The notes under the pieces were generated by a model. It had not been told where the DNA came from. It worked only from the letters and a program-made list of their open reading frames with translations, and searched no databases. From the IMG/VR virus record IMGVR_UViG_3300027791_000007, positions 62,001-126,000 of that record: DNA of 64,000 bases. The stretch is one strand, 5' to 3'. Shown here one piece after another: positions 7,076-62,260 of the stretch. The translations under genes were made by a program, and so were the position numbers. The DNA comes from a virus. Position 1 is the stretch's first letter. Each line of letters begins with the position of its first letter.

Positions 7076-7507
7076 CTATACAATGGAAGCGTATAGTTTA
7101 CATGAATTATTTCTTCCTACCATTTCATAATCCACTTTCAACTTCAATCCACCCTCTACCATGTGAGAAATCCCATCATCGTCTAAAAACTCATCAAATG
7201 GTGTATTCTCATCTTTACCAAATCTTCCACCCATCTTATTAAGTTGAAGTTCAAATGAACCACTCTGTTCACTCATACTTGGTGTTGCTTCCATACCAAG
7301 ACCAACAGCTGCTAATCTATTTCTTAAAGTATTAAGAGCGTGTTCTGGTAAAATAAATTCTTGATTTCCTATCAGTCCAACAAATGCATTAAGTCTTTTT
7401 ACGACTTCTGGATTTCCTAGTTCGGCAGGATTAATATCTAAATCCACAGCAACATTATGGTGCATATTATTGTGAACTTCTTTTATGTGTTGTTTAAAAC
7501 TTTTCAT
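7076..7507 (-). CDS. Hypothetical with capsid-targeting-like leader
   Basis: 143 aa. The first ten residues MKSFKQHIKE match the shape of T4 internal-protein leaders (M-K-x-F/Y...I-x-E), with predicted gp21 cleavage after E10. The rest has no recognisable domain. It starts in an ATGA overlap with the stop of the Cys-rich 43-aa gene, so translation is coupled. A packaged internal head protein is an inference from the leader; function unknown. Confidence 0.6.
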   Translation of the reverse strand: MKSFKQHIKEVHNNMHHNVAVDLDINPAELGNPEVVKRLNAFVGLIGNQEFILPEHALNTLRNRLAAVGLGMEATPSMSEQSGSFELQLNKMGGRFGKDENTPFDEFLDDDGISHMVEGGLKLKVDYEMVGRNNSCKLYASIV

Positions 7508-14156: not shown

Positions 14157-16577
14157 TTAACCTTTCATCAAGTCTGTGACGGATTTGGTACTCCAAAACT
14201 TACACGACCAATATCCTGCTGTAGTCTTATCTTTTTTCTGATCGCAATTGTGTCTTGCACGAAAATTCTTTCTCGCTTGTGGGTCATCTCGTTTGATTGA
14301 CATATTTGGGTCACCAAACTCTACCTTCACAACATTGCCCTTATCGTTCTTTACATAAACTTTGTACTTTTTGACATCACCCTTTGTTGGATTATTTAGT
14401 TCTTTGCCTTCAGCATCTTCTGTATATTCACCCCAATCATTCATTTTCTTAAATTCAGTAAATGATGCGGCAAGTTTAGTTATTGCTTTTCTTCTTGAGA
14501 ATTTTGTTTGGCCTGATTTACCCTTTTTGGGGATTAGTAAATTAGGTAATTTTTTGTCTTTCTTTAGAGTTGATTTCTCTTCCATATCTGTTGATTCTGG
14601 TACACAGTTAGGAACTTGTTTTCCACCCTTATTCTTCATACCAACTTGTTTGTAACCATCCCAACATGGGCCTGTATCAGACTTTAATGATTCCTCATCA
14701 AAGTTATCAGCACAATCATCACAACAACCAACCTTTTCTAACATTGATTCCTTGACTTCTTGTAGTTTCCACCACCAATCTTCACCATGTCTTAATTGAT
14801 AGTTTGCACGAACAACTTGACTTTCAAACCACTCATTAACTTGGCCTGGTGTTACTTTCTTAGTATGATCTGCATAGTCTTTACCAATTTCATATGATTC
14901 TGCTTTTTTCTTCTTCTTATATCCACCTTGTGAAATGTCTTTTTGTAAATCTGGGTCTGCTTTACCACCAGTTAACATAGAATTAACTCTTGCAAATGCC
15001 CACTGTTGTGGGGTTGTGCCTGGGCGATGTCCACCTTTCCATGCAGCCAGTCCTCTGTCATATGACTTTTTAAGAATACCATATGGAACACCACTCTGTT
15101 TTGATTTGTTTACAAGTCCTTCAATCTTTTCGTCTAACTGTACTGATTCAGTATATGGGATTTGTTTAAGACCTCGTTCTTTTTCTACTTGTTTATTTGC
15201 TTTGTCAAGTATAGATGATATATCAGAACCATCAAATGCAATAGGTTTTGTTGGGTCACCAGTTATCCACCCCTTTTCCTTTGACTTTTTATCATCTACT
15301 TGGCCTGGATAATGTTTGAAATCTTCTTTTTTATCTCCAAACATCTGTTTAAACTTTTTAGTATACTGTGATGGTTTGGTATCAGCATCTTTATCGCCTG
15401 GAGCATTGTCTCTACTTCCACCTTTTGCAAAATGTCTTGCACGAGCAAGTTTAGTAGATTTTGACATTTCATCTCCTTCGGAATCTTTTGAGTAATACTT
15501 TGCTGGTTGTGTACCCTTTACATCTTTAACATCACCCTTGACTTGTTTTGTCTTTGTAATCTTCTTAGGTTCTTCTCTAAGTCTTGGTTCTCTACGATTA
15601 ACAGATGGGTCTTCCATTTTAAGATTTGATGGGTCATTGTTCATAGGATCATTATCTTTGTGTCCTACGTCCATACCCTTAATTACCTTATCACCCATAA
15701 CTCTGCGAGCCTTGTTCCTAGAAGAACGTCTTGCAATCTGTTCTGGTGTACCTTGATAATTTGCATACTCTTGTTTATAGTTTCTAACTTCTGTTAACCA
15801 TGCCTTATGTACTTTACCAGATGCATCGTTAAATGATATGTAATTAGTTCCTCTTGATATAATTTTACCATCAATACCATTTGCACTAATCATTTCTCCA
15901 ACTAACCAGATTTTTCCAGTAAGATACTTATCTCTTAGAGTTTCATAGTCATCCATGTCACCCATGTCTTTTTCTTCTCTGATACCCATATATTTACGAA
16001 CATCATTGAATAATTTTCTTGCAGTTGTTTCATCAGAAGCAACTCCTTGTTTGAAGATATCAAAACTATTTGCAGTTGCAGCAGCTCTCATCTTAGATGC
16101 CGACATACCCTCAACACCCTCTGCATCTGGATCTCTTTCTCCAGCAGAAATAACTTTGATTTCGTCAAAACCGTAATAACCGTGTTTCTTACCTTCTACA
16201 CCATTGTACTGATTTAGTAGTCTTTCAAACTCTTTTACTCTATCAGAACCAGCAATCATAGTGATTGACTTATATCCTAGTCCATGCAATCTAACAGCAA
16301 TGTCAAATACATTTCTTATTTTTGGATCTGCAACAATATTCTTAGAATGTTTTTTGAATATCTTTCTCATATATGCAATCTTTAGTGCATACGGTAAAGG
16401 GTCTTTAGCAGGACTTTGAGACTGTGAAGCGAAAATAGAATACTCTCTAGAACCAGAAGAGGTCTTTGCAACCTTTAGTATTAGTTTCTCATGCCCAACC
16501 GTTGGTGGATTGAATCTACCGAAAGTAAACGTATGATTAAACTTAGCTTCGTTAAGTATTTGTTTAAATTTTTTCAT
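14157..16577 (-). CDS. Multidomain nucleotidyltransferase/HNH-like protein with capsid-targeting-like leader
   Basis: 806 aa. Residues 1-10 (MKKFKQILNE) form a leader of the T4 internal-protein type. Residues about 15-200 are a cytidylyltransferase-like Rossmann domain: GRFNPPTVGH (T26-x-G28-H29) and the second motif EGMSASKMR, usual for NMN/pantetheine adenylyl- or cytidylyltransferases. About 275-345 looks like an HNH-type segment (GHKDNDPMNNDPSNLK). About 500-550 has the DUF5824-like block YGILKKSYDRGLAAWKGGHRP, and the end is a Cys-containing block (FRARHNCDQ, YWSCKFWS). Likely a virion cargo polyprotein; overlaps the ligase-like gene by 4 bases. Confidence 0.7.
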   Translation of the reverse strand: MKKFKQILNEAKFNHTFTFGRFNPPTVGHEKLILKVAKTSSGSREYSIFASQSQSPAKDPLPYALKIAYMRKIFKKHSKNIVADPKIRNVFDIAVRLHGLGYKSITMIAGSDRVKEFERLLNQYNGVEGKKHGYYGFDEIKVISAGERDPDAEGVEGMSASKMRAAATANSFDIFKQGVASDETTARKLFNDVRKYMGIREEKDMGDMDDYETLRDKYLTGKIWLVGEMISANGIDGKIISRGTNYISFNDASGKVHKAWLTEVRNYKQEYANYQGTPEQIARRSSRNKARRVMGDKVIKGMDVGHKDNDPMNNDPSNLKMEDPSVNRREPRLREEPKKITKTKQVKGDVKDVKGTQPAKYYSKDSEGDEMSKSTKLARARHFAKGGSRDNAPGDKDADTKPSQYTKKFKQMFGDKKEDFKHYPGQVDDKKSKEKGWITGDPTKPIAFDGSDISSILDKANKQVEKERGLKQIPYTESVQLDEKIEGLVNKSKQSGVPYGILKKSYDRGLAAWKGGHRPGTTPQQWAFARVNSMLTGGKADPDLQKDISQGGYKKKKKAESYEIGKDYADHTKKVTPGQVNEWFESQVVRANYQLRHGEDWWWKLQEVKESMLEKVGCCDDCADNFDEESLKSDTGPCWDGYKQVGMKNKGGKQVPNCVPESTDMEEKSTLKKDKKLPNLLIPKKGKSGQTKFSRRKAITKLAASFTEFKKMNDWGEYTEDAEGKELNNPTKGDVKKYKVYVKNDKGNVVKVEFGDPNMSIKRDDPQARKNFRARHNCDQKKDKTTAGYWSCKFWSTKSVTDLMKG

Positions 16578-17821
16578 TTATCCCATGCCTTTATAGCGGT
16601 AAAGTTGTTAAACGAGAACTCCATTCTGTCCACTAATTTAACTGCATTTCCACTAACTCTATCAATAGCAACATAACCTTCTGGGTTAGTTACTTTAAAT
16701 CCATTACTAGTCTTAATAAAGGTATTTGTTAATCCCTTTACACTATTTAGTTTATTCACAATTTCTGCTTTAGCATCAACTAGATAGTTCTGAAACTCTA
16801 GAGTTAAGGTTAATACGTTTGTAAATTTCTTGACTTCTCGTACATATTCTTTTTGCAAATTCTTGTATTTTTCTTTACCAGCAACCGACTTTACTTTATC
16901 AATATTCTTCTGCAATGCCATCTCTACATGTTTTGCATATCCTATAGCATGTTGTCTGGGGTTAGATATTGTCTCTCCAGCCCTAACTTTAGTATTATTA
17001 TATGTTTTTAATCCAGCACTAGCAAGTTGTCCAGTAAACAACTCTTGTAGTTTTAAAAACGATTTCAACTGGTTTGAATTAATCTTTTGAAAAGTCTTTC
17101 CAGTTTGTGACAGTAGAGCAGTTACTTTTTCTGTCTCTTTTGAATTAAATGTCGCACTTCCAGACACATCCTTATAGGTTGCATCATCCATCCACACAGA
17201 GGACGGTTTATTTAAACTTGATATGTTCGCACCAAATGATGCTTTCATTGATTGTAAATCACTTCCAGTATAAGTTGTATGCCAAACTACACCGATTTTT
17301 GATTTGTTTATTGTATTTCCTATGTCACTATCCACTGGTACTGCATATACAATAGTATTAGGCTGAAAAGTATAACACTTTTCGCCACCAATTGTTGTGG
17401 TGTCAACATCATCGGTGAACATGAGGTCTCCTTGAAGAACTCCTTTGATACCCAATTTAGAAAATTCTGTAAATGCAATCTTAAACTTAGAATTAAGAGC
17501 TCCAGATAATTTATCATCATCTATCTCCTTTATTGATTTGTATAGTTTTGGTTCAGCATTAAATACAGACTTCTTTGCAACAAAGAACTTATTATCAGAA
17601 GGGTCGATGCCAGAAAAGATTGCAGGCGCACCATCCCACTTAACAGTCATTGAAATAGATGAACGAGAGTTACCAGCAAGCATATCTCTTAATGAACGTA
17701 GGAAGTTAATTGCAGCTCTACCACCGTCAACTCCGTAGTTGAGAATTTCATCCTCTAGATGTTCTAGGTGTAAATTCTTACCACCCTTATCTTCTGTAAG
17801 TAGTTGATTAAATGTTTTCAT
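16574..17821 (-). CDS. Putative ligase-fold covalent nucleotidyltransferase (DUF6267-like) with leader
   Basis: 415 aa. The leader MKTFNQLLTE (cut predicted after E10) is very close in form to T4 internal-protein leaders. The motif VKWDGAPA places K61-x-D63-G64 as motif I of the DNA/RNA ligase and capping-enzyme superfamily. LQGDL (131-133 region) fits motif III, and EGYV (381-384) plus KLV (near 395) fit motifs IV and V. The gap between III and IV is unusually long. If correct, it binds ATP covalently and acts on nucleic acid. It overlaps both neighbours by ATGA. Family naming is from memory; the chemistry is inferred. Confidence 0.6.
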   Translation of the reverse strand: MKTFNQLLTEDKGGKNLHLEHLEDEILNYGVDGGRAAINFLRSLRDMLAGNSRSSISMTVKWDGAPAIFSGIDPSDNKFFVAKKSVFNAEPKLYKSIKEIDDDKLSGALNSKFKIAFTEFSKLGIKGVLQGDLMFTDDVDTTTIGGEKCYTFQPNTIVYAVPVDSDIGNTINKSKIGVVWHTTYTGSDLQSMKASFGANISSLNKPSSVWMDDATYKDVSGSATFNSKETEKVTALLSQTGKTFQKINSNQLKSFLKLQELFTGQLASAGLKTYNNTKVRAGETISNPRQHAIGYAKHVEMALQKNIDKVKSVAGKEKYKNLQKEYVREVKKFTNVLTLTLEFQNYLVDAKAEIVNKLNSVKGLTNTFIKTSNGFKVTNPEGYVAIDRVSGNAVKLVDRMEFSFNNFTAIKAWDK

Positions 17822-17961
17822 TTGGTATACGCCTTATAGCCTGTGCCAGTTTCTCTATTGTGCCACCTTTTATGCCAGGCCCAATTACTAATTCTACCAC
17901 ACTTAGTTTCTACCATACGATAGAATTTGTCAAGTACTTTTATTTTTAAACTTATCTTCAT
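17818..17961 (-). CDS. 47-aa basic, Trp-containing small protein
   Basis: ATG at 17961 overlaps the TGA of the upstream 451-aa gene as ATGA, and its own TGA overlaps the next ATG (17821) the same way. The ORF fills the whole gap exactly. The product is basic (CGRISNWAWHKRWHNRETG) with three Trp, no membrane segment. The double coupling strongly supports coding. It has no recognised family. Confidence 0.7.
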   Translation of the reverse strand: MKISLKIKVLDKFYRMVETKCGRISNWAWHKRWHNRETGTGYKAYTK

Positions 17962-19313
17962 TTTTGTAATCCATTGTATTTTACAGCAAGACTGAATTGC
18001 CCCAACTTCTTCTGTCCAGCATTTCCAGACTTATTTGTTCTAATTGACATATTCATAGTTAACTTGTCTTGTCCAGATTTCAACTCTATAAACCAACTTT
18101 GTTTAGATGATTTACTAGAATATGCTTTAACAAACTGTACTTGTGGTAAAAATACTCCAAGGGCATCTTTGTCTGTTACTTCCTCATACTTGTCACCAAT
18201 TGCTTTGATAACTAAAGTAGGAACATCTGGAGCATCCCTCAATACTTCATGTCGAATATAATCTACGGTTTTCTCTTTATTCTTATTAAATAAGTCAATA
18301 ACACCATTTCTCATAATTTCTAGATACTGATTGTAATACAACTCATATTCTTTATTATTCTTTTGGTCAAATTTTCTTAAAGCATTAACAGTTTTAAGTG
18401 TGCCTGATCTTTGTCTATATTGATTTTCTGCTGGGAAATCTGGTATTTTTGAATATATTTGAGAATACACCGTTTTCATTAATGTATCATGTATTCTTTT
18501 TTCTTTGAATACATCAAAAATCTTTGTAGTATATGTGTTAAGTTGTGGTTCAGAAGTTTTCTTTCCACCAGCTTTTAAACTCACACCTAATATACTTTTA
18601 TCGGCATACATTAAAAACATATCGCCTGGGTGTCCACTTGGAACACCAGAAGGTTTTTGACGATATCCCCAAAATACACTTTGAATAGGTTTGTCGTTAT
18701 GTTGATCTGTTAAGAATTTTGTTATTGCAATTGCATTAGTCATCTTATCTTCAAACTTAGATGATGTATCTGCTTTATTAATTGTCTCTTGAGCGGCTTG
18801 TAAGTCTTTACTACCAATACATTTAAGACTTTTGATATCCATGTCTAATAGATATTTATGAAATGCTTGTGTGTCTCTAGGTGTATATTTTGTTTCAAAT
18901 GCAATACAAGGAAATAGTTCTGTTATACTTGCATTAAGGGTAGTTTCTGCCATACCACCAGAAATAGGTTTCACAAAGATACGAAACTTCTTACCTTCAT
19001 GTTCACCATCAATTGGGTCAACACTTGATTGAGCAGTTCCTAACTGTGCCTGAATACCAGCTTGATTAAGATTCCTTAGAATCTCATCTCTATCCGTTTC
19101 TCTATCTTTTGAACGAACAATTATTACATCTCTAGAAGTAGAAGATTGTCTCTCATTCTTCTCGAAATCAAGTCCTCTAAAAATATCTACTGGTAATGTT
19201 GTTTGTTCTGATAAGAAATACTCCTCCACCAAATCAAGTTTAGGTTTATATGTAGATGCTCTACGCCTAACTTGTTGAACGGATTTCTTTAGTAATGACA
19301 TCAGTTTCCCCAT
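17958..19313 (-). CDS. Hypothetical with possible PD-(D/E)xK-like core (late)
   Basis: 451 aa. Residues about 30-45 (EEYFLSEQTTLPVDIF) recall the N-terminal processing region of T4 Alt, with L-S-E as a possible gp21 site. About residues 228-248 read GHPGDMFLMY...LGVSLKAGG, which fits a degenerate nuclease core (D then S-x-K in place of D/E-x-K). No other catalytic motif is certain. It opens the large late operon of ligase-like and nucleotidyltransferase-like genes behind the promoter at 19333. Function unknown; a virion-packaged nuclease-fold protein is a hypothesis. Confidence 0.6.
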   Translation of the reverse strand: MGKLMSLLKKSVQQVRRRASTYKPKLDLVEEYFLSEQTTLPVDIFRGLDFEKNERQSSTSRDVIIVRSKDRETDRDEILRNLNQAGIQAQLGTAQSSVDPIDGEHEGKKFRIFVKPISGGMAETTLNASITELFPCIAFETKYTPRDTQAFHKYLLDMDIKSLKCIGSKDLQAAQETINKADTSSKFEDKMTNAIAITKFLTDQHNDKPIQSVFWGYRQKPSGVPSGHPGDMFLMYADKSILGVSLKAGGKKTSEPQLNTYTTKIFDVFKEKRIHDTLMKTVYSQIYSKIPDFPAENQYRQRSGTLKTVNALRKFDQKNNKEYELYYNQYLEIMRNGVIDLFNKNKEKTVDYIRHEVLRDAPDVPTLVIKAIGDKYEEVTDKDALGVFLPQVQFVKAYSSKSSKQSWFIELKSGQDKLTMNMSIRTNKSGNAGQKKLGQFSLAVKYNGLQK

Positions 19314-19332: not shown

Positions 19333-19340
19333 TATTTATA
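19333..19340 (-). promoter_or_regulatory. T4-type late promoter
   Basis: Exact TATAAATA on the minus strand between tRNA-Arg and the 451-aa gene; predicted start about 19327, ATG at 19313. It marks the switch from the replication block to the late block. Confidence 0.75.
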
Positions 19341-31588: not shown

Positions 31589-31837
31589 TTATTCAAATAA
31601 TTCTATTTGTTTTTTCTTGTTAACTGGTTTCATTGGGAAATAAATATTAATCATTTCTAGTCTATCATGTGCGGCAGATAGTTTATCTAGTTCAGCCATA
31701 ACTGCTTCTGTTACATCTGAATGCTCTCCAATTCCTGCCGGCATTGTTTGATACACTGCAATATTTGCCTTGTGAACTTCAATTTGTCCTTCTGCATGTT
31801 TTTTTGCAGCAAAAATAATTTGTTCGCCTACTTTCAT
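31589..31837 (-). CDS. Small conserved phage hypothetical (82 aa)
   Basis: 82 aa, helical, with the block HKANIAVYQTMPAGIGEHSDVTEAVMAELDKL. I recall similar blocks in short proteins near the polymerase of marine phages. No cysteine or membrane segment. It overlaps the RimK-like fusion by 4 bases. Function unknown. Confidence 0.65.
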   Translation of the reverse strand: MKVGEQIIFAAKKHAEGQIEVHKANIAVYQTMPAGIGEHSDVTEAVMAELDKLSAAHDRLEMINIYFPMKPVNKKKQIELFE

Positions 31838-33306
31838 TTTGTACTCCTTTTATTGAGTTTTTGGGGTAAATCGTCCTCATCTGTTTTATCGCCTCTTTCA
31901 ATCCAATCGGATAGAACGAATCTCCTATTTGGATTGACACTTACTTGAAACAAAGTCATAATATCTCTGTTAGCAAGAAAAGTACTTCTTGAATCTTTTT
32001 CAGTAAGTCCTATTGGTACATCTAAATATTTTCTATTATTAAATGTTATGTTTACGTTAACAATAGGTCTTTCATCTATTTTTCCAACATGTTCTGGTTT
32101 GGAAACACCTTGTAAGGCACTTGTAAATTTCTTTCCGTCTTTTTCCCACTTAACTGTTCTGCCGTTAATATCTACTTTGTCAACAACAAACATTGATGCA
32201 TGTGTTCCATTTCCAGTATCGAACTTTGCTCTTAGTGGGCCGTAACCATCTATTTCAATTCTTTCTACATATCCAGATTCAGTAGGAAATGAATGTCTAC
32301 GATTATTTGGTATCATAATAAACTCTAATAACTTTTCTACAATCTTAGATGGATTTGCATCACCAATATATGCATTGTTGTCTGATTCTGTATCAGTAGC
32401 ATCATACAATGCAAAATTAGAACCAATACCAGCAGAACCATTACACTCTAAAACGTAAACATCTCCACTTACAATAGCATGGTCAACACCAACAACATAT
32501 GCACCAACTGAACGAGATGCCCTTAGAATCACTTCTCTTTCTCTATCATTCAATTTATATGGTTCTGTTGTAGCACCTCTATGTCTATTAGACCTAAAAT
32601 CTTTCTTTGCAGAAATCCTCTTTGTTGATGCTAGTATTTTACCACCAACTACAATTGTTCTTATATCACTATCGAATTTAAAATATTCTTGAATTAAAAG
32701 TTCAGCACCAAATTTCCATAATGACTGAACATTAGAAACTAAACTCTCGTAATCTTTAGCAATAGAAACACCAATACCTTGTGTACCAGTAATTGTTTTA
32801 ATGATAACTGGAAACTTACCACCAATTCTTTTTAATCCATCTTCTAGAGACTTTTCATTTGAAACTATTGATGTTCTAGGAGTCGGTATACTGTTTCTTT
32901 CAAAAGATAAGAACGCTGACATTTTATTATCACATGTCAACATACCTTCTCTATTGTTAATCATAAACGAACCAGACTTCTCAAAAGATGTTAGTAGTGC
33001 GAGTCCGATTTCATCTTCTAAAACTCCAGCACGAACAAAACACACAGTCTTTCTAGTGTTAAATTCTACATCATTATCGTTACCATCAAAATTAGATACT
33101 GTTATTATTCCAGTTTCTAAATCATTAGCAGCGATCCATGCATCTCTAACATTAATGATGTGACATTTAATATTACGTTTTTCGCAAGCTTTCTGTAAAA
33201 GATTGCTTACTAGTTCTGGTTTTTTAGATTTAACTTTGGTTAGAATTGCTACTTCAATATCAGTGTCAACTTTGGCCTCAGTAAAAAAATCGGCAAATTT
33301 TTCCAT
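31834..33306 (-). CDS. RimK-like ATP-grasp ligase fused to RimB-like retropepsin-type protease
   Basis: 490 aa. Residues 1-10 (MEKFADFFTE) look like a capsid-targeting leader. Residues about 15-330 are an ATP-grasp ligase of the RimK type: glycine loop TGTQGIGV (173-180), VGVDHAI and LECNGSAG (E287, N289 as metal ligands). Residues about 345-480 match the aspartic/zinc protease-like RimB family: LRAKFDTGNGTHAS (D363-T-G), then LDVPIGLTEKDSR and FLANRDIM. RimK adds glutamates to ribosomal protein S6. The combination suggests modification and trimming of a host protein. It lies downstream of regA. Confidence 0.8.
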   Translation of the reverse strand: MEKFADFFTEAKVDTDIEVAILTKVKSKKPELVSNLLQKACEKRNIKCHIINVRDAWIAANDLETGIITVSNFDGNDNDVEFNTRKTVCFVRAGVLEDEIGLALLTSFEKSGSFMINNREGMLTCDNKMSAFLSFERNSIPTPRTSIVSNEKSLEDGLKRIGGKFPVIIKTITGTQGIGVSIAKDYESLVSNVQSLWKFGAELLIQEYFKFDSDIRTIVVGGKILASTKRISAKKDFRSNRHRGATTEPYKLNDREREVILRASRSVGAYVVGVDHAIVSGDVYVLECNGSAGIGSNFALYDATDTESDNNAYIGDANPSKIVEKLLEFIMIPNNRRHSFPTESGYVERIEIDGYGPLRAKFDTGNGTHASMFVVDKVDINGRTVKWEKDGKKFTSALQGVSKPEHVGKIDERPIVNVNITFNNRKYLDVPIGLTEKDSRSTFLANRDIMTLFQVSVNPNRRFVLSDWIERGDKTDEDDLPQKLNKRSTK

Positions 33307-53578: not shown

Positions 53579-54223
53579 TTACAACATTTTGAGGAACTTA
53601 GCAAATTCTAATGCTTGATTTGCAGCTTTCCCCTTCTCAAGTCTTTGTTTCATCTCCACCAAATGTGGTTCAAGATAACTTCCATTATCCCACACCCACT
53701 CTTTTCCTTCCATGATACCTTCCACGAAAGCGGATGGAGCCGATGGATCAGCAACGATATCAGCCGCAGTTGCGAGCATGAAATCTTTGTTTACATAGTT
53801 TGCACCACCTTTTGATACTAAACTACCCATACCTCTTGATGAAACACCTAATGTAGCACCCTCATCCATAAGACTTTTTACAATCTTACCCATAGGGGTG
53901 TCCATTATTTTTGCCTCTCCGATAAAATTTTTACCTTCGGGCACTAATGATGTTATCAAATGAGATGCTCTTTCGAGATTTACAGTCGGCCCTTCTGGGT
54001 GACCTAATTCTCCAAAAGCTCTCTTTTTCGCTATGAAGTTTTTATTATACTTACCTACTTCATTAGTCAATACTTCCATAGGATAAACACGGCCATTTCG
54101 GTTCTTTATGTCCGCCTGCATGAAAACACCACGAATTTTATAGTTCTTCTTACCATCAGCAGCTTCTTCTGCGATAAAATGAACATCTTGGATATCTTCT
54201 GTAATTAATTTTACTAAGCGCAT
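53579..54223 (-). CDS. gp21: Prohead maturation protease, T4 gp21-like
   Basis: Serine protease that cuts scaffold, capsid and internal proteins after (L/I)-x-E. 214 aa (T4 212). Catalytic His lies in FGELGHPEGPTVNL and the Ser in LGVSSRGMGS. Its own N-terminus MRLVKLITE ends in I-T-E, a self-cleavage-type site, and resembles the leaders on several cargo candidates in this window. Own late promoter at 54255-54262. Confidence 0.95.
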   Translation of the reverse strand: MRLVKLITEDIQDVHFIAEEAADGKKNYKIRGVFMQADIKNRNGRVYPMEVLTNEVGKYNKNFIAKKRAFGELGHPEGPTVNLERASHLITSLVPEGKNFIGEAKIMDTPMGKIVKSLMDEGATLGVSSRGMGSLVSKGGANYVNKDFMLATAADIVADPSAPSAFVEGIMEGKEWVWDNGSYLEPHLVEMKQRLEKGKAANQALEFAKFLKML

Positions 54224-60678: not shown

Positions 60679-62260
60679 CTACCATCTCCCCAATATTTTC
60701 ATCTTCTAAACCATCTACTATAAATCCGAAAGGAGCCATATCTTGTTCTATTTGGTTTTTATTTTCTTGTAACATGCGTTCTCGCATATCCATGTTAGTT
60801 AATTCTTTAAAATACGTTTGGTCAATCGACCATGCAAACATAAACAAACATGCAACCAAATCATCGTTACATCCATCGTCTGCTTGAAAAGACGATCCTT
60901 TTACTATGAATGTTGATAATTCGTTTATCATATCATAATCTTGTACTATCATTTTATTATCTTCGATCATCTGTTTTAGATTAGAACAACCAATCTTCTT
61001 AACTGCTTTAGTTGTTCTTACCCCCAACTGTGCCTTACCACCACTAAATCCACCACCCATGATTTGTCCAGCACGACCTCTCATAGATGCCATAACTAGA
61101 TTATCATATTCTAAATCAAACTGTAATGTATTAGCAACTTGTTCACCGATATCATTTACCTCTACCAAAACAAATGCTTGATTATATGCTCTTGCAACAT
61201 CATATATTTTTTGTGGGAACAATAGTGGTTTTATTTCGTTATCTCTGTACTTCGCACATATTTTATATGGTATCTGTGTTACGTCAAAAACAACAAAGGC
61301 AGAGTAATCACTCTCTACTCCTCTTGCAACGTCCACCGTCATAAAATAAGTATGATCTTTTTCTGGTGGATAATAAACATCCAAACCTTTATTAGATTGT
61401 ATCGGAGTCTTATATGCAAGTTCTCTTAGTTTGCGTGGCGAAATAAGTGTATCAATAGAACCTAAAAACTCACACTCAAACTCTGTGTTAAACTGTTGTT
61501 CACTTGTATTCGCAATAGTTTCTTTCTTCCATTTCTCATCTCGGCCTGGTACTTCTGACCAATGAACCTCAATAGGTATATAACTATTTCGTTTTTCTTC
61601 TGCTTCTGTCCATATCTTATAGAACATGTTCATACCGTGTGGTGTGGAAACAATCATAACCTTTGTTGTTTTACCAGAAGAAATGGTAGGATACACAGAA
61701 CTAAAAAATTGTTCTGCTACGTTGCTGGGTACATATGCAAACTCATCCAAGAAAATAATATTATAAGAACCACCACGAACGGCAGATGCTGAAGTAGATG
61801 ACGCCAAAATTTTAGAACCGTTTTCAAGTTCAAGACTCCCTTTGTTCCAAGACATAACTCCTTGTTGTAACCACTTGGGAAGATGTTCATACGCAAGTTG
61901 CAGTCTCCCCAATAAATCTCTCGCAGTTGCGGCCTTGTTTGCAAGTATAGCAATATTAACTGCTGGATTAAATAAAGCATAGTGTAACAAATACGACACC
62001 ATTGTTGTGGACTTACCAGACTGTCTAGGTAATTTACATATAGTAAAACGATTACTGTGGAATGTACCAACCATTTCTTTTTGAAAAGGATACATCGTAA
62101 ATGGTACTAAACCTTCATCAAGATTAATAATCTTCACATAGTTTTGAATAAAGTATAGTGGGTCTTCCATACAACTAGCATATTCTTGCAGTTCTTTCTT
62201 AGTCCAGTTCTGCTGTACATTGGCCTTTTTAAGATTTGGATTACCTAGATAAGTTTCCAT
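60623..62260 (-). CDS. gp17: Terminase large subunit, T4 gp17-like
   Basis: ATPase and nuclease that packages DNA into the prohead. 545 aa (T4 610). Walker A PRQSGKST (78-85), Walker B IIFLDEFAYV, coupling motif MIVSTPHG, and RNase-H-type nuclease motifs TVDVARGVESDYSAFVVFD and VLVEVNDIGEQV are present. It overlaps the sulfotransferase-like gene by 20 bases. Confidence 0.97.
   Translation of the reverse strand: METYLGNPNLKKANVQQNWTKKELQEYASCMEDPLYFIQNYVKIINLDEGLVPFTMYPFQKEMVGTFHSNRFTICKLPRQSGKSTTMVSYLLHYALFNPAVNIAILANKAATARDLLGRLQLAYEHLPKWLQQGVMSWNKGSLELENGSKILASSTSASAVRGGSYNIIFLDEFAYVPSNVAEQFFSSVYPTISSGKTTKVMIVSTPHGMNMFYKIWTEAEEKRNSYIPIEVHWSEVPGRDEKWKKETIANTSEQQFNTEFECEFLGSIDTLISPRKLRELAYKTPIQSNKGLDVYYPPEKDHTYFMTVDVARGVESDYSAFVVFDVTQIPYKICAKYRDNEIKPLLFPQKIYDVARAYNQAFVLVEVNDIGEQVANTLQFDLEYDNLVMASMRGRAGQIMGGGFSGGKAQLGVRTTKAVKKIGCSNLKQMIEDNKMIVQDYDMINELSTFIVKGSSFQADDGCNDDLVACLFMFAWSIDQTYFKELTNMDMRERMLQENKNQIEQDMAPFGFIVDGLEDENIGEMVDEYGTKWAPIVRDYSSNW

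Follow-up and report, generated by a model that had tools for sequence, protein, structure and literature searches.

The analysed stretch, hereafter the window, comprises 64,000 nucleotides (positions 62,001 to 126,000) of the IMG/VR virus record IMGVR_UViG_3300027791_000007, a 148-kb record carrying T4-type portal, protease, scaffold and major head genes. The subject of this analysis is a gene on its minus strand, starting with ATG, whose product matched the Pfam family DUF6267 (E 2.7e-103), of unknown function, and also fell into PHROG 455, a group of unknown function. A first-pass annotation, made from the letters of the window and their open reading frames (ORFs), had described an uncharacterised late protein with ligase-superfamily motifs. 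Uncharacterised it is, since no use of the name DUF6267 was found in the literature searched. Using the window protein as a tblastn query, DUF6267 was recovered in 402 phage records at an E-value of 1e-5 and in 468 at an E-value of 1. The carriers, almost all of them marine and T4-like, were mostly phages of Synechococcus and Prochlorococcus, joined by Pelagibacter phage HTVC008M, Methylophilales phage Melnitz and Stenotrophomonas phage DLP6. The features discussed below are collected in Table 1.

Table 1. Position of the DUF6267 gene, its predicted elements and related features (window coordinates unless a locus is named).
Feature	Position	Strand	Basis or remark
DUF6267 protein gene, 415 aa, predicted covalent nucleotidyltransferase (ligase/capping superfamily)	16574–17821	–	Pfam match, alignment, predicted structure
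Leader MKTFNQLLTE, residues 1–10, head-targeting-like, with an [LI]xE head-protease site at its end	17792–17821	–	Clade comparison; disordered in model
Motif I KWDG, residues 61–64, predicted nucleotidylated Lys61	17630–17641	–	K, D, G invariant
Lys84 at the motif Ia position (FFVAKKSVF)	17570–17572	–	Residue invariant; placement putative
Motif III QGDL, residues 130–133	17423–17434	–	Q130, D132 invariant; modelled strand 128–135
Candidate motif IIIa, strand TIVYAVP, residues 156–162	17336–17356	–	Y159 invariant; T156, I157, P162 nearly so; modelled strand 157–162
Helical insertion between IIIa and IV, residues 227–360, lineage-variable	16742–17143	–	Window-protein model; shorter in Syn9-type relative L340
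Motif IV EGYV, residues 381–384	16670–16681	–	E, G, V invariant
Motif V KLV, residues 395–397	16631–16639	–	K395, R399 invariant
806-aa protein, N-terminal HIGH-type nucleotidyltransferase (GRFNPPTVGH), leader MKKFKQILNE	14157–16577	–	Homologues found in virions
47-codon ORF, stop overlapping the DUF6267 start	17818–17961	–	
First large cassette gene, PHROG 2496, nuclease-like D...SLK signature	17958–19313	–	Nuclease reading by inspection
Late promoter of T4 type, TATAAATA, 20 nt ahead of the first cassette gene	19333–19340	–	Motif match
Head maturation protease (T4 gp21 homologue), predicted leader-cleaving enzyme	53579–54223	–	PHROG 207, E 4e-77
Gene before DUF6267, examples besides that of the window (17958–19313)	L198:3204–4001; L197:1760–2551; L226:3346–4161		

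The ORF and the motif positions given by the first-pass annotation were confirmed (K61-W62-D63-G64, G131-D132-L133, E381-G382-Y383-V384 and K395-L396-V397), as was the long insertion between motifs III and IV, seen in the spacing from D132 to E381 and in the helical residues 227–360. In an alignment of 61 diverse relatives, 25–80% identical to the window protein, 32 columns were invariant. These include K61, D63, G64, D132, E381, G382, V384 and K395 and, among others, F79, F80, K84, F87, Q130, P154, N155, Y159, H181, T182 and R399. Ahead of motif I, H18 and H21 were likewise invariant and D24 nearly so. When the genome's ORFs were scanned for the ordered motif pattern, a single match was obtained, the DUF6267 protein, against 0.115 expected per shuffled proteome.

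The AlphaFold2 model of the window protein, built on the family alignment, reached a pLDDT of 85.7 and a pTM of 0.80, with residues 1–14 disordered and the helices of residues 227–360 sitting between the strands that follow motif III and motif IV. Compared with the PDB by Foldseek, it gave no clear best match, RNA editing ligase 1 of T. brucei (TbREL1) and the LigA adenylation domain being among its weak top-50 matches. Among viral models it matched DUF6267 homologues, the S-PM2 DUF6267-cytidyltransferase fusion and, with a probability of 0.98, an Agrobacterium phage protein annotated as RNA ligase. Because the inserted helices were thought to split the core, a short relative of Syn9 type (L340, 314 residues) was modelled, with a pLDDT of 86.2 and a pTM of 0.81. 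Covalent nucleotidyltransferases made up 44 of its top 50 PDB matches, each with a weak E-value; counted from the list, which repeats some enzymes, they represent roughly ten kinds (Trl1, DNA ligases I, III, IV and archaeal, LigA, PCE1, human guanylyltransferase, Naegleria and archaeal RNA ligases). The best match was the ligase domain of the tRNA ligase Trl1. Structure prediction thus supports the ligase-superfamily reading of the first-pass annotation, and DUF6267 very probably belongs to the covalent nucleotidyltransferase superfamily.

Upstream of this predicted core, the residues preceding the conserved H-x-x-H-x-E-D stretch vary from phage to phage while an [LI]xE site stays, typical leaders being MKTFNQLLTE, MKKFNSFLAE and MLSFKQYLNE. 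Among nonredundant members the site was present in the pre-core leader in 43/43, 17/17 and 53/53 proteins of the window, HTVC008M and DLP6 clades, respectively (113/113 together), where shuffling each leader's residues gave an expectation of 12.6, 4.4 and 10.2. In two leaderless cyanophage clades it was found in 0/27 and 0/12 nonredundant members. When assemblies of bacteria and archaea were scanned separately (mostly contigs of metagenome-assembled genomes, probably phage DNA), the site was recovered in 26 of 34 scorable members; seven of the eight others had no such leader and one carried MFSFKGFFTQE, which gives 26 of 27 for the leader-bearers. In T4, cleavage takes place after residue 10 of gp24, residue 65 of gp23 and residue 9 of gp21 (PMC9958956), where the T4 sequence reads LRE, LTE and LIE, respectively. 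Besides, T4 IPII and IPIII both begin with MKTYQEFIAE, and foreign proteins have been carried into T4 heads by the capsid targeting sequence (PMC3012670, PMC9958956). Over the whole genome of the window phage, a strict leader pattern occurred at 7 of 163 ORF starts and at 10 of 757 internal methionines; this contrast is only modest, and the family-wide comparison was therefore relied on. The DUF6267 leader is quite likely to act in head targeting.

Read in their direction of transcription, the PHROG 2496 gene, the 47-codon ORF, the DUF6267 gene and the gene of the 806-residue HIGH protein form a cassette with overlapping stops and starts, the start codon of the last overlapping the DUF6267 stop (ATGA). 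The motif TATAAATA ahead of the cassette is the late promoter of T4, whose S-PM2 form is NATAAATA (PMC2984593). In the window, 11 of the 13 minus-strand TATAAATA sites stood 14–63 nt upstream of an ORF start, those of the gp21 and gp22 genes among them; zones of this kind make up 6.9% of the window. The motif was also present upstream of gene −1 in 21 of 31 scorable window-clade loci and 26 of 55 DLP6-clade loci, and in 5 of 24 of the leaderless S-RSM4 clade. The HIGH nucleotidyltransferase adjoins DUF6267 in 43 of the 83 loci that have 2.5 kb or more of downstream sequence, and in some phages the two are fused (PHROG 455; S-PM2 protein). The 806-residue protein also showed a weak HNH-like match and DUF5824.

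Mass spectrometry has detected leader-bearing HIGH enzymes in the virions of four phages: T4-GC190 of S-SM1 (MKKFSAFLNE; PMC3037559) and the enzymes of S-CREM2 (MKNFSSFLTE; PMC10665884), S-SZBM1 (MRFRQFIIE; PMC9146016) and S-SCSM1 (MKSFLQFLKE; PMC9602691). With the T4-type protease site kept in a hypervariable leader, a neighbour with a like leader detected in virions, and a late promoter 20 nt ahead of the cassette, the capsid-targeting-like leader and the lateness that had been proposed at first pass both found support. Packaging of the leader-bearing DUF6267 in the head appears likely. The identity of T4-GC15 with DUF6267 was considered and rejected, the S-SM1 record giving DUF6267 as T4-GC71, which goes unmentioned in the text of PMC3037559. 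ORF90 of S-SCSM1, a virion protein encoded beside the NMNAT gene, was likewise discarded as a homologue of the cassette, as it belongs to PHROG 1462 and neither to PHROG 2496 nor to DUF6267. No DUF6267 was found beside the cytidylyltransferase gene of S-CREM2, and the DUF6267 of S-CREM1 is leaderless. Two genes past the S-CREM2 cytidylyltransferase, ORF156 (L385:10013–10726), a Pol-beta-type nucleotidyltransferase (NTP_transf_2), is listed among the virion proteins.

The reading favoured here, to which we give a rough probability of 0.6, is that DUF6267 represents a divergent covalent nucleotidyltransferase of the polynucleotide ligase type, which is made late, loaded into the head, injected and active in the repair of ends in the host. 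We infer its catalysis, packaging, ejection and substrate as follows. In the window phage and its relatives, the protein would be made late, drawn by its leader into the prohead core and cut after LTE10 by the gp21-type protease. The mature protein would stay in the head and enter the cell along with the DNA, and early in infection it could mend the broken ends that host nucleases leave on RNA or DNA. With ATP (or NAD+) as donor, Lys61 would be adenylated, and its AMP would then be transferred to a 5'-phosphate end for joining to a 3'-OH end. Leaderless cyanophages would use the protein within the infected cell. Active end joining seems rather likely. The odds that the substrate is RNA are about even, and DNA is possible with somewhat lower odds; RNA is slightly favoured because an OB domain is missing and Trl1 and phage RNA ligases are among the nearest folds.

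Several results weigh against this reading. Motif III of the superfamily usually carries E and motif V reads KxK; in DUF6267, D stands in motif III, and K395 is followed by L-V-D-R, so that the second lysine is missing. Neither an OB domain nor motif VI was found in the protein, whose chain ends about 20 residues past motif V. These departures at motifs V and VI, together with the very divergent sequence, would suit a protein that kept the fold yet is catalytically dead and serves as a head-core or nucleic-acid-binding protein. However, the residues of motifs I, III and IV and the first lysine of motif V are invariant across relatives only about 25–30% identical; kept catalysis is therefore indicated, and a dead enzyme is considered very improbable. 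At the level of sequence, a Pfam scan of all 61 members listed 25 families and no ligase family among them. Neither the single sequence nor the profile of the 61 members, when searched against the PDB, returned anything but chance or coiled-coil matches, and hhalign found nothing significant against the T4 Rnl1 and Rnl2 profiles, the best, non-significant local alignment to Rnl1 being the stretch of motifs IV and V. Likewise, no single PDB match of the short-relative model was significant (best E 0.036, TM-scores about 0.2–0.28). Since single matches are weak, TM-scores low and some enzymes repeated, the adenylyltransferase-type fold is taken as strongly indicated, not proven. The lack of any significant structural or profile match would also be expected if motifs and leader were chance and the fold unrelated to ligases; however, this explanation has to face the enrichment of one superfamily among the PDB matches of the short relative and the rarity of the motif pattern in shuffled proteomes, and is held to be very improbable.

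The packaging part of the reading meets difficulties of its own. Late-promoter motifs preceded gene −1 in 0 of 15 HTVC008M-clade loci. The literature searched yielded no virion proteome for any phage whose DUF6267 bears a leader, and the authors of the S-CREM2 and S-SCSM1 studies noted that virion-detected proteins might be carry-over (PMC10665884, PMC9602691). The leaderless DUF6267 of S-SZBM1 is absent from the table of 30 detected virion proteins (PMC9146016), in which the products of both genes downstream of it appear; its absence also agrees with packaging governed by the leader.

The principal competing explanation sees in DUF6267 the DNA ligase that marine T4-like phages seem to be missing, with a replicative or repair role inside the infected cell; the leader would then be a lineage-specific addition. 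A review describes cyanomyoviruses as being without a homologue of the g30 ligase and raises, without settling it, the question of distant homologues, whose absence it deems more probable (PMC2984593). Searches with PF09511, PF09414, PF01068 and PF01653 gave no match in the genomes of the window phage, Melnitz, HTVC008M and Syn9, the PF09511 negative being weaker because this family matched no control genome; hence ATP- or NAD-dependent DNA ligase families were not found in four of the five genomes tested. The DUF6267 gene moreover adjoins primase-helicase and polymerase genes, and the leader is missing in two cyanophage clades. These observations make DUF6267 a candidate for the ligase of cyanomyoviruses. 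However, a purely intracellular DNA ligase fits poorly with the late promoter of the window clade, with the head-targeting leader that three clades bear and with the missing OB domain. Besides, the fifth genome, that of DLP6, carries one PF01068 DNA ligase in addition to a leader-bearing DUF6267. This explanation is thus regarded as unlikely.

The frequent adjacency and natural fusions of DUF6267 with the HIGH nucleotidyltransferase, as well as the conservation ahead of motif I (H18 and H21 without exception, D24 almost so), could point instead to a capping-type or protein/RNA-end nucleotidyltransferase, or to a NAD+-using ligase whose NMN is recycled by the NMNAT-like neighbour, rather than to an ATP-dependent ligase. 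However, an NMN-binding Ia domain of DUF6267 and the use of NMN by the HIGH partner would be hypothetical, and an OB domain is normal in capping enzymes; such an activity is judged improbable. By the tests made, DUF6267 falls into no described ligase family; it is most aptly regarded as a new, divergent family within the superfamily, some of whose lineages bear a head-targeting leader.

Among known systems, T4 Rnl1 (gp63) and the ligase domain of fungal Trl1 share with DUF6267 a K-x-D-G motif I, an EGYV motif IV and a lysine-bearing strand at similar spacing, whereas DUF6267 differs by D in motif III, a single motif V lysine, a helical insert before motif IV and the leader. ATP-dependent DNA ligases and mRNA capping enzymes possess an adenylyltransferase core like the predicted one, but DUF6267 is without their OB domain and motif VI and without a PF01068 match. 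With T4 IPII, IPIII and Alt, which are packaged through the capsid targeting sequence, the DUF6267 phage has in common a leader of about ten residues with [LI]xE and a gp21-type protease; here, however, the cargo is a predicted ligase and its packaging is predicted. The cyanophage cytidylyltransferase/NMNAT-like protein of T4-GC190 type adjoins DUF6267, bears a like leader and is sometimes fused to it, but is of the HIGH type, whereas DUF6267 is a predicted covalent nucleotidyltransferase; virion presence has been reported by mass spectrometry for T4-GC190. The vaccinia capping enzyme is a covalent nucleotidyltransferase packaged in a virion, but of a eukaryotic virus and with another architecture and route. 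To our knowledge, no ligase-type enzyme was previously known in a phage head. If packaged, DUF6267 would be the first, and the internal-protein route of T4 would extend from inhibitors and an ADP-ribosyltransferase to nucleic-acid repair. These results also provide an assayable predicted activity for a family labelled as of unknown function in hundreds of marine T4-like phage genomes, a simple rule, the leader pattern, for finding further head-loaded proteins in these phages, and a candidate answer to why cyanomyoviruses seem to be without T4's DNA ligase (PMC2984593).

A wider and rather doubtful proposal is that marine T4-like phages inject a head-loaded end-processing kit with their genome, the leaderless DUF6267 being the missing cyanophage ligase. 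Such a kit would consist of a nuclease-fold protein, the DUF6267 ligase, the HIGH nucleotidyltransferase and, in some lineages, a P-loop kinase or a HAD phosphatase, with like, protease-cleaved leaders. The gene before DUF6267 varies from phage to phage; a PD-(D/E)XK-like signature (YSDVLV..KVWIEVKM, for example) is common in its product, in many cases together with a like leader, and in DLP6-type phages DUF6267 is often preceded by a protein that looks PD-(D/E)XK-like by inspection and bears a leader of its own. A P-loop kinase (Zeta_toxin/AAA_33) with an [LI]xE leader adjoins DUF6267 mainly in HTVC008M-type phages (L082:7742–8404 in HTVC008M, L229 and L235). A HAD phosphatase with a head-targeting-like leader, possibly an end-healing partner, lies beside DUF6267 at L204:2457–3065, L176:3396–4001 and L211:2845–3450. 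Elsewhere in the window, a 143-residue protein of no known family (7076–7507, minus strand) starts with MKSFKQHIKE and is possibly head-loaded, and a RimK-like ATP-grasp protein (31834–33306, minus strand) starts with MEKFADFFTEAK, which is leader-like with F in place of L/I.

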